64,000 nt of DNA from an uncultured Lachnospiraceae bacterium (GTDB lineage Bacteria > Bacillota > Clostridia > Lachnospirales > Lachnospiraceae). This document shows, in pieces, positions 31,974 through 37,233 of this stretch. Position 1 is the first letter of the stretch; each line of letters starts with the position of its first letter. The stretch lies in assembly GCA_947175035.1 (NCBI GenBank), contig CAMWLG010000008.1:1-64000 (forward strand). Direction: 5' to 3'. A program made the translations under genes and the position numbers. Below the pieces are notes generated by a model, which saw nothing but the letters and a program-made list of their open reading frames with translations, was not told where the DNA came from and searched no databases.

Positions 31974-32639
31974 CTATGCTACCTGTTGCACTAGGATATC
32001 TATCACCCTTTCATTCTGCTCCCGACAATAAGCGATCACCGCCTCGTCCCCCTTCTCCGCGACTTCCGTCACATCGCCGCCTAAGAGAACGAAATACACA
32101 TAGTCGCCTTCACTGTCCACCTTGCTCGCTTGTACCTTGCCCATATTCATAGGGTACTGCATACTGTCTTTCAGCAGATTGATGCGATAATCCTCCAAGA
32201 TTCCTTTTACCTCATCCGCCTGCCCTTCCTTCGCCTTGACGATCAACAAGGTATCCACATGTGCACTCATCATGGGCATCTCTCCCATATAATCCTCATA
32301 CATATCCTCTGTCAGCCCATATTGCGACTTCAAAATCTCCGCGGGCATCTCCATATTGGGCCAGTAATCATCCCCCAACTCTGCCGCCACTGCATCCCGA
32401 AGCGATTGCATCTCCTCGCTCCAACCGCCGGCATCCTCTCCCACGTCCTCCCCGGCTCCCCCGGGACCTATATCTTCCACTGTACTTTCCCCGGCTCCAA
32501 CATTCCCCTGAACACCCATGCTCTCCTGCAGGGAACTTCCCCCGCTCTCGCTCCCTGTATCAGCATCTTTTCTGTTTCCACAAGCCGTCAACCCAAGCGC
32601 AAGTATCCCTACACATAGCATCATTATCCATTTTTTCAT
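31974..32639 (-). CDS. DUF4358-like lipoprotein
   Basis: Lipobox ALGLTACGN; C-terminal AHVDTLLIVKAKEGQADEVKGILEDYR...YVYFVLLGG; in O-acetylation cassette. Confidence 0.82.
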   Translation of the reverse strand: MKKWIMMLCVGILALGLTACGNRKDADTGSESGGSSLQESMGVQGNVGAGESTVEDIGPGGAGEDVGEDAGGWSEEMQSLRDAVAAELGDDYWPNMEMPAEILKSQYGLTEDMYEDYMGEMPMMSAHVDTLLIVKAKEGQADEVKGILEDYRINLLKDSMQYPMNMGKVQASKVDSEGDYVYFVLLGGDVTEVAEKGDEAVIAYCREQNERVIDILVQQVA

Positions 32640-32723
32640 GCGAATAAACCTCCCTTTACTGCGTTTTCCTATATTAAAGATAATATTGCATAATTACTGG
32701 CAAATTATTCATAGCCATTTATC

Positions 32724-32904
32724 TTTGCGGCAAGTCACGCTGACGGATGGGTACTATTCCTATTCAGGCACGCTCCCGCTCTGTGAAAAACGTAACGGAC
32801 GCTAAGCTCGTTCCTCGCTAAGCGCATGCGATTTATCAAATCGCTTACGTTTGTTCAAAGGCCTTCATAGGAACAATACCCATCCATCAGCTGATTGCGG
32901 CAAA
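32724..32904 (-). ncRNA. Structured hairpin element 1 (candidate novel RNA / structured repeat)
   Basis: 23-position basal helix 32741-32763/32867-32889 (20 Watson-Crick plus 3 pairs that are G-U only on the minus strand), extension toward 32724/32904, inner helix 32788-32795/32845-32852, hairpin 32828-32844, 32-nt core 32769-32800 shared with element 2. Confidence 0.72.
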
Positions 32905-32910
32905 AAATAA

Positions 32911-32938
32911 AGTATACCAAATAATATGTTTATTGCAA
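32911..32938 (-). promoter_or_regulatory. Candidate promoter initiating near the base of element 1
   Basis: Minus strand TTGCAA-16 nt-TATACT with extended -10 (TGG TATACT); predicted start about 32904. Confidence 0.4.
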
Positions 32939-32952
32939 GCTGAACTATTGTT

Positions 32953-33132
32953 AGTTAAGTATACGGAAACAGGCTGGCGTAGGTATATGTTCTACAAGCG
33001 ACCCTTGAAACACGTCGGCACTTGCGCACCGTACTCTGGTGCGCTATGTGTCCGTTACGTGTTTCACGGAGCGGGAGCGTGTCGCGGCTAGAACATATAC
33101 CTATGCCAGCCGTCACTTATGCCTACTTAACT
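32953..33132 (+). ncRNA. Structured hairpin element 2 (same family as element 1, opposite orientation)
   Basis: 23-bp basal helix 32972-32994/33089-33111 (one G-U, on the plus strand), perfect 10-bp inner helix 33006-33015/33057-33066, hairpin 33024-33044, 32-nt core 33050-33081, optional outer 9-bp 32953-32961/33124-33132. Confidence 0.72.
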
Positions 33133-33173
33133 GCCATTAAAGACCAACTTGTTACTATTGTGCATTCTTTTAC

Positions 33174-33204
33174 TTGACATTCTGGCAGATTCATGAAATA
33201 TTGT
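33174..33204 (+). promoter_or_regulatory. Candidate ABC-F promoter
   Basis: Consensus TTGACA at 33174-33179; A/T-rich -10 candidates AATATT or TATTGT 17-19 nt downstream. Confidence 0.4.
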
Positions 33205-33248
33205 AACTATTCAGAGCCAAATATAAGCAAAATGGATTGGGGATTGTT

Positions 33249-34805
33249 ATGAGTATCTTAAATGTAGAGCATCTTACACATGGTTTCGGGGATCGGGCGA
33301 TTTTCAACGATGTCTCCTTCCGCCTGCTGCCCGGCGAGCACATCGGGTTGGTCGGCGCCAACGGCGAAGGCAAATCAACCTTTATGAATATTATCACCGG
33401 GAAGCTTAGCCCCGACGAGGGCAAGGTGGAATGGGCAAAGCATGTCCGCGTAGGCTATCTGGATCAGCACACGGTGCTGAGCGCTGGGCAAACCATTCGC
33501 CAGGTGCTTGCTTCCGCCTTTGATTTTCTGTATGAAATGGAAGCACAGATGAATGAGATTTGTGACAAAATGGGGGAAGCCACTCCGGAGGAACTGGAGA
33601 CTTACATGGAAGATCTGGGCACCATTCAGGATCTTTTGACCATGCATGATTTTTATATGATTGACGCCAAGGTAGAAGAGGTTGCCAAAGCCCTCGGACT
33701 GCAGGAGATCGGCTTGGACAGGGATGTGACAGAGCTGTCAGGTGGGCAAAGAACCAAGGTTTTGCTGGGAAAGCTCCTTTTGGAGAAACCAGATATCCTC
33801 CTTTTGGACGAGCCCACAAACTATTTGGACGCGGAACATATTGAATGGCTGAAACGGTATCTGAACGAGTACGAGAACGCCTTTATCCTGATCAGCCACG
33901 ATATCCCTTTTTTGAACAGTGTCATCAACCTGATCTACCATATGGATAATCAGGAATTAAACCGCTATGTCGGGGATTATGACAAATTCCAGGAAGTCTA
34001 TGCCATGAAAAAATCCCAGTTGGAAGCTGCCTACAACAGACAGCAGAAAGAGATTGCAGATCTGAAGGACTTTGTGGCACGGAATAAAGCCCGCGTTTCC
34101 ACCCGCAATATGGCAATGTCCCGACAGAAGAAGCTGGACAAAATGGATGTGATCGAGCTGGCGTCTGAGAAGCCCAAACCGGAATTCTATTTTAAAGAAG
34201 CCCGCACCTCGGGACGAATTATCTTCCAGACCACGGATTTGGTGATCGGTTATGAAGAACCTCTTTCCAAACCTATGAACCTGACCATGGAACGGGGCCA
34301 GAAAATCGCCTTGATCGGCGCGAACGGCATCGGTAAAACCACACTTTTAAAAAGCCTGCTGGGTCTGATTCCGTCCCTTCGCGGCACCGTGGAACAGGGC
34401 GATTATCTGGAGCTGGGGTACTTTGAGCAGGAGACCACGGACGGCGGCGACAACAGTTGTATCGAGGCAATCTGGGAGGAATTCCCCGGATTTTCCCAAT
34501 ACGAGGTACGCTCCGCTCTCGCCAAATGCGGACTGACCACCAAACATATCGAGAGTAAGGTGAAGGTGCTAAGCGGCGGCGAGCAGGCGAAGGTACGCTT
34601 ATGCAAGCTGATCAATCGTCCCAGCAATGTGTTGGTCTTGGACGAGCCCACCAACCATCTGGACGTGGATGCCAAGGAAGAATTACAGCGGGCTCTGAAG
34701 GAGTACAAGGGCAGTATCCTCATGGTCTGCCATGAACCGGAATTCTATGAAGGACTGGCGACAGATGTGTGGGATTTGACCAAATGGACCACAAAATTAG
34801 TATAA
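33249..34805 (+). CDS. ABC-F family ATPase
   Basis: Two ABC domains without TM: GANGEGKST/LSGGQRTKVLLGKLLLEKPDILLLDEPTNYLD and GANGIGKTT/LSGGEQAKVRLCKL...LVLDEPTNHLD; start set to 33249. Confidence 0.94.
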   Translation: MSILNVEHLTHGFGDRAIFNDVSFRLLPGEHIGLVGANGEGKSTFMNIITGKLSPDEGKVEWAKHVRVGYLDQHTVLSAGQTIRQVLASAFDFLYEMEAQMNEICDKMGEATPEELETYMEDLGTIQDLLTMHDFYMIDAKVEEVAKALGLQEIGLDRDVTELSGGQRTKVLLGKLLLEKPDILLLDEPTNYLDAEHIEWLKRYLNEYENAFILISHDIPFLNSVINLIYHMDNQELNRYVGDYDKFQEVYAMKKSQLEAAYNRQQKEIADLKDFVARNKARVSTRNMAMSRQKKLDKMDVIELASEKPKPEFYFKEARTSGRIIFQTTDLVIGYEEPLSKPMNLTMERGQKIALIGANGIGKTTLLKSLLGLIPSLRGTVEQGDYLELGYFEQETTDGGDNSCIEAIWEEFPGFSQYEVRSALAKCGLTTKHIESKVKVLSGGEQAKVRLCKLINRPSNVLVLDEPTNHLDVDAKEELQRALKEYKGSILMVCHEPEFYEGLATDVWDLTKWTTKLV

Positions 34806-37156: not shown

Positions 37157-37233
37157 GCACTTAGATTTGTTACGAATCTTTTTTAGGTTGTCCTTAAAAA
37201 TGGGAATTTATGCGAATCATTCTGAATAGTTAA

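Follow-up and report, generated by a model that had tools for sequence, protein, structure and literature searches.

A divergent pair of structured hairpins in a Lachnospiraceae genome is probably a worn copy of a MITE-like mobile element with a folded core

Introduction

What are the two large structured hairpins that lie between divergent genes in a 64,000-nucleotide stretch of DNA (here called the window) from an uncultured Lachnospiraceae bacterium? A preliminary description of this locus had proposed two back-to-back copies of an element that could not be matched to a named RNA class and is maintained by selection on a folded single strand, most likely an RNA. We examined the two hairpins, their relatives in the same genome (the host genome) and in other genomes, the pairing and the ends of the copies, and the genes that surround them.

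Results

Two divergent hairpins in a decayed composite repeat

The window carries hairpin A on the minus strand and hairpin B on the plus strand, which are divergent and have a 32-nt core block in common. The two copies of this block (32769-32800, minus, and 33050-33081, plus) are identical at 30 of 32 positions, and sequence comparison and folding confirmed that each lies within a long-range helix, as had been described. The arms of A, 31 nt each (32739-32769 and 32861-32891), are 84% complementary, and those of B, also 31 nt each (32972-33002 and 33081-33111), are 87% complementary. Folded as RNA, A reached -84.2 kcal/mol (z -8.6) and B reached -100 kcal/mol (z -9.7), with no dinucleotide shuffle of either being equally stable. 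The compensatory change reported between the two, T33061 to G together with A33011 to C, is genuine, and relatives show further changes of this kind. Element A of the window has an extra hairpin module within its inner helix, a module common to other copies. The flanking genes are divergent as well and encode a DUF4358 protein (31974-32639, minus) and an ABC ATPase (33237-34805, plus) that is predicted to be of the ABC-F type from its two ABC domains and ABC_tran_Xtn domain. The features of the locus, with what each assignment is based on, are as follows.

32703..33156, no strand: whole composite repeat (A, spacer and B), decayed; composite alignment, left end extrapolated by eye
32703..32716, plus: degenerate left terminal inverted repeat AATTATTCATAGCC (intact copies: GTAACAGTTCAGCC); alignment with relatives and sequence reading
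32739..32891, minus: element A hairpin; arms, folding and a covariance-model match of 74.1 bits at 32755-32875
32769..32800, minus: conserved 3' core of A; sequence comparison with B and relatives
32772..32779, minus: side hairpin of A, 2 bp with a GNRA cap (GC-GGGA-GC); in relatives the stem covaries and the loop is GNRA
32892..32971, no strand: 80-bp spacer that separates the 5' side of A from that of B; homologous among composites of the host genome
32972..33111, plus: element B hairpin; arms, folding and a covariance-model match of 89.6 bits at 32988-33095
33050..33081, plus: conserved 3' core of B; sequence comparison with A and relatives
33071..33078, plus: side hairpin of B, 2 bp with a GNRA cap (GC-GGGA-GC); in relatives the stem covaries and the loop is GNRA
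33141..33156, minus: degenerate right terminal inverted repeat AAGACCAACTTGTTAC (intact copies: AAGACTGAACTGTTAC); alignment, and BLAST to the composite and the B element

Over positions 32725-33155 the window composite is 79% identical to an intact composite, L033 (GTAACAGTTCAG...CTGAACTGTTAC). An extra stretch of 8 nt directly follows the degenerate left terminal inverted repeat of the window copy, and no target duplication was seen at this copy, which is decayed at both ends.

A high-copy family centered on Lachnospiraceae

Either hairpin, used as a query, returned some twenty further loci in the host genome, and a covariance model found 29 core hairpins there. The composite of A (minus) and B (plus) occurs at about eight sites of the host genome with a length of ~430-470 bp (the two intact composites measure 411 and 471 bp), and the aligned composites have GTAACAGTTCAGCC at the start and GACTGAACTGTTAC at the end. 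Seven other Lachnospiraceae genomes hold between 32 and at least 150 copies each, the highest per-genome numbers being 77, 128 and at least 150. The divergent hairpins of the preliminary description are therefore present, but as part of a high-copy family and not as an isolated pair.

Searching a species-level genome collection with a pattern for the 3' core gave more than 100 stretches among the matches listed, nearly all of them Lachnospiraceae by title. The pattern had no match in viral contigs, on which ground a phage origin was rejected. The covariance model R1, which comprises 49 sequences and 27 pairs, matched 66 of 150 Lachnospiraceae genomes in a sample of about one per genus. In an order-wide sample it matched 13 of 197 genomes, all 13 being Lachnospiraceae and the other sampled families giving none, and in a phylum-wide sample it matched 5 of 400, four Lachnospiraceae and one genome of another family. 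A covariance-model search had been suggested in the preliminary description, and homologues with covarying arms do occur in other genomes. The sole genome outside Lachnospiraceae with the core (G700) has 4 copies (L232-L235). Records titled Muribaculaceae or Muribaculum (L060, L062, L068, L125 and others; JAMPHJ, JAMPGV) share repeat types with Blautia-titled records of the same project, and these are probably mislabeled bins rather than a sign of spread to Bacteroidota.

Rfam 15 gave nothing over the gathering threshold and was also empty at a permissive threshold, in agreement with the earlier failure to match the element to a named RNA class. Among the papers searched we found no description of the element, nor is it named in the main text of a survey of microbiome structured RNAs published in 2021.

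A conserved fold under pairing constraint

Each unit is an inverted repeat of ~170-240 bp of which only one strand folds into the long hairpin, with a variable basal helix, a 3' bulge carrying a GNRA-capped side hairpin, an A/U-rich inner helix and a swappable tip. In the consensus, the outer part consists of the basal helix, whose sequence is wholly different between families, P1b (RGRC/GYCY), CC/GG and a conserved U/C mismatch. The inner part consists of UGAAAAACG/CGUUUUUCA, a 2-nt YU bulge, CYGG/CCRG and a CUUAG/CUUAG helix with a central U/U, followed by an exchangeable tip of highly variable length, and the 3' side reads A-GC-GNRA-GC-GU.

This fold is under pairing constraint. In a MAFFT alignment of 49 copies that was built without structure, double-sided changes were present in 16 of 27 pairs and 96.4% of cells were paired, a result that none of 500 shuffles reached. 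In an alignment of 130 copies, which was fitted to the model and so leans toward structure, double-sided changes were present in 25 of 27 pairs, and shuffles and slid controls fell well short. Given that the search pattern for the 3' core had fixed GRRA, the loop statistics were rechecked on 51 matches outside the pattern; the loop was GAGA, GAAA, GCAA or GGGA in nearly all of these, and the third base was a purine in all. The stem of the side hairpin varies from GC/GC to GU/AC and AC/GU while the loop remains GNRA. Nearly invariant across tens of genera are A209, the GNRA loop, the U20/C206 and U41/U181 mismatches and the YU bulge (A2 columns). Selection on a folded single strand, as first proposed, is supported by covariation far over shuffles and slid controls and by the covarying stem of the GNRA-capped side hairpin.

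We considered whether covariation could arise without selection, through template switching or hairpin repair that homogenizes palindromes, with the core reflecting recent ancestry and horizontal spread. The arms are wholly different between families and still complementary, and intermediates are rare, as such a process would predict. However, correction would remove the bulged and mismatched positions, yet these hardly vary over tens of genera, and the core was kept while the arms diverged past recognition, which makes this account improbable in our judgment.

Gene context and strand use

Copies show no orientation bias relative to genes (31/30/20/18) and lie upstream of gene starts and downstream of gene ends with equal frequency, the median distance between stop codons and the 3' side of the element being 19 nt. 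No promoter could be localized in the 5' flank (38 seen versus 30 expected; antisense 44), and TTTT within 14 nt, taken as a U-tract, was present in just 11 of 147 copies. The short distance to stop codons would suit bidirectional transcription terminators or insulators at gene ends, but the U-tract is absent, positions upstream of gene starts are equally common and the conservation of sequence far exceeds what a terminator needs, so that we hold this to be highly improbable. A cis-regulatory or terminator role was rejected on the unbiased orientation and the lack of a U-tract.

The same observations bear on a functional RNA, in which the sense strand would be transcribed and the folded RNA, a three-way junction with a GNRA side hairpin, would be protein-bound, processed or cis-acting. 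Mobility would be secondary, as in repeats that bear mRNA processing signals. An RNA is suggested by the strict GNRA loop, with its third base always a purine also in copies outside the search pattern, by covariation, by a folded strand that is always the same, and by the basal helix, where G-U pairs outnumber A-C after de-duplication (107 versus 70, p = 0.007); a shared bidirectional promoter would furthermore suit head-to-head pairs. The G-U strand asymmetry, first described from 4 positions, is thus real across 140 copies but weak. Set against an RNA are the low share of G-U, just 1-3% of pairs in the core, where it is modestly above A-C (26 versus 18 with skewed columns left out), together with the unbiased orientation to genes, the lack of a localized upstream promoter and the scarcity of U-tracts. 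As the element is moreover a mobile repeat whose ends are inverted and whose target sites are duplicated, the view that the pair is most likely an RNA could not be upheld, and we regard a functional RNA with mobility secondary as somewhat unlikely.

Terminal repeats, target-site duplications and mobility

Three end types carry the same core, namely, GTWACWGTTCA, CACGGAAATCAATTTTCAGTCAGC (also CACGGAAATC) and TTGCGAAACTC. For the first, nine units with the core, 174-258 bp in length, lie between exact 8-bp duplications (L042 in the host genome, L055, L113, L129, L250, L251, L255, L260 and L268), and the motif outnumbers its reversed control by 74 to 7 in the host genome and by 211 to 6 in genome G111. 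Some copies in G111 have arms that terminate in GTTACTGTTCACGG, beyond which lie perfect direct repeats of 8 bp. Duplications with 0-1 mismatch were found in 14 of 43 candidate end pairs, where 0.44 were expected and at most 4 were seen in 2000 shuffles. The second end type is present at L060, L068, L076, L077, L139 and others, with 9-bp duplications at L068, L076, L077 and L139. The third, TTGCGAAACTC and its complement, has 9-12-bp flanking repeats in two copies (L091 and L175) and was found in the host genome too (L187); an IS630-like TA target for these ends was rejected given the length of the flanking repeats. The preliminary description had allowed for a match to a transposon end, and this is in part what was found, in that many relatives have arms that finish in terminal repeats of transposon type. 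The copies have no coding capacity, and their insertion is intergenic and unbiased as to gene strand.

The family is therefore one of high copy number, with a pairing-constrained fold, terminal inverted repeats, target-site duplications and at least three end types around one core. Given these terminal inverted repeats and duplications and the shared core of the three end types, we conclude that what the window contains is probably a non-autonomous mobile element of the MITE-like kind, now worn, in which two units stand head-to-head with a shared folded cargo. Copy number, the enriched ends, the duplications, the non-coding nature of the copies, covariation and intergenic unbiased insertion all count in favor of a MITE-like element. 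Counting against it, no transposase with these ends was found: none lay between matching ends in 20 stretches around such ends, IS66 and IS256 transposases (the two families searched for) were absent from the host genome, and among five genomes IS66 was present in one only and IS256 in another only, neither with matching ends. In addition, 96 of 155 copies have none of the three end types, with flanking repeats not in excess (7 versus 3.3 expected), and the window copy has no target duplication.

In such an element, the unit would be mobilized by DDE-type transposases that come from other elements and bind its tips. The role proposed for the folded core is that of a common cargo, which would aid persistence or mobilization of the unit, and not that of the tip recognized by any one transposase. 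That one core is found in three or more end types whose duplications differ in length would best be explained by different transposases moving the same cargo. Template-switch correction could copy a transposase site from arm to arm, by which one hairpin would gain different transposon ends; that such correction of the arms also partly keeps the core palindromic seems unlikely. As to the activity of the cargo, an extruded single-stranded DNA hairpin is quite plausible, if short of favored, and activity as an RNA when transcribed is conceivable but already open to some doubt.

A single-stranded DNA or cruciform structure could also account for the family in its own right. Modeled on attC sites, IS200/IS605 and REP hairpins, the hairpin would be extruded at the replication fork and recognized by a transposase or a host protein. 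Such a structure would fit the many double changes with few wobble intermediates, the bulge-bearing fold in one strand only, the freely swappable apical part, the arms kept by pairing alone and the lack of any part played by transcription direction. We remain rather doubtful of it, given that the 8-9-bp target-site duplications suggest double-strand DDE integration, that a strict purine at the third loop position is rather typical of RNA and that no HUH or tyrosine enzyme has been linked to the element.

Head-to-head arrangement of neighboring copies

Neighboring cores within 1.2 kb were head-to-head in 25 of 28 cases, tandem in 3 and tail-to-tail in none, a pattern noticed post hoc for which random order would give 1:2:1; outside the host genome, 18 of 21 neighboring pairs were head-to-head. 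Later whole-genome lists added seven more head-to-head pairs and the tandem arrays of genome G110, again with no tail-to-tail pair. These G110 arrays are head-to-tail with periods of 148-187 bp, on contigs C41, C21 and C59 (L329, L330 and L335). Single elements had the 3' side nearer the gene in 62 of 90 cases (p = 0.0004), which was likewise noticed post hoc and with genes called by a simple ORF rule.

The members of a pair usually differ in their arms and are without common outer ends, and pairs outside the host genome have no long outer inverted repeat in common, L124 alone having matching arms. Genome G016 has three head-to-head pairs (L326, L327 and L328) with nearly equal gaps (372-398 bp) and non-homologous spacers. 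A composite-transposon reading of all head-to-head pairs was rejected for lack of common outer repeats and given the unrelated G016 spacers. We also rejected special gene cargo between spaced pairs, where the genes look like ordinary neighbors; by eye, we take the gene at L060 to be carbonic anhydrase-like and the gene at L228 to be polysaccharide deacetylase-like.

Simple transposition of symmetric units predicts neither the head-to-head order nor the 3' side nearer the gene, and both count against the MITE-like reading. The core might be the substrate of a dedicated factor, undescribed so far and conserved in Lachnospiraceae, which could be a ribonucleoprotein, an activity that processes RNA or an enzyme that binds hairpins of single-strand DNA. 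It would at the same time be a transferable module that small transposons of unrelated types take up for their spread or persistence. Its 3' side would then be the functional end, from which the head-to-head pairs would follow; we consider this quite unlikely.

Relation to known repeats

Bacterial MITEs are usually seen as hardly more than transposase-binding ends. The element shares with MITEs, including Correia/NEMIS of Neisseria and the enterobacterial RU/ERIC, a short, non-coding, high-copy, intergenic and hairpin-forming nature, terminal inverted repeats and target-site duplications. It differs from them in its ~100-nt folded core with covarying helices across a whole bacterial family, in having one core in at least three end types with differing duplication lengths, and in the head-to-head rule. 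REPINs and BIMEs are doublets of REP sequences thought to be moved by RAYT transposases (PMC3116915). Like these, the element is an extragenic hairpin repeat in paired inverted arrangement that is mobile in trans, but its units are 170-240 bp with a large conserved core and direct duplications at the flanks, and no RAYT has been linked to it. The REPIN/RAYT system is marked by insertion without target duplication, whereas duplications are present here. We know of no case in which Y1-type transposition creates direct duplications. Integron attC sites are similar in being structure-conserved imperfect palindromes with strand-specific unpaired bases and a variable tip. In contrast to attC sites, the element is without RYYYAAC/GTTRRRY ends, cassette arrays or an integrase, its copies are dispersed with ends that differ between families, and it has a large core with a GNRA side hairpin and its own target duplications.

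Throughout this major family of gut bacteria, a single finely conserved folded module is carried by several end types, and its covariation suffices for a searchable model. A testable proposal is that the element is an undescribed passenger within at least three kinds of small transposon rather than a lone RNA gene. What benefit a folded cargo brings to small transposons, and by which factor of the host or the transposon it is read, become testable questions with such a module. A further lesson is that structured elements occurring in pairs in Lachnospiraceae need to be checked for being repeats before any is announced as a new RNA gene.

Within the hairpin, modules have been swapped between copies (window 32820-32860, L041, L043 and L050-L052), and at these sites one extra hairpin (ACAAACGTAAGCGATTTGATAAATCGCATGC) and a small number of tip variants turn up repeatedly, combined in varying ways. 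Core-less MITEs of 29-244 bp with GTWACWGTTCA ends were also observed (L281 202-375, L294 780-932, L283 216-244 and L302 355-401). Two of these in the host genome, of 174 bp (L281) and 153 bp (L294), have the same ends (GTAACWGTTCAG) and form multi-branched folds closed at the ends, a GGC-GAGA-GCC hairpin being part of one of them; unlike the element, they lack the core, and R1 has no match in them. The copy at L294 is an intact member of the 153-bp type with GTAACTGTTCAGAACC ends, and pieces of that type lie in the window at 33203-33235, starting ~50 bp past the right end of the composite, and at 37208-37233.
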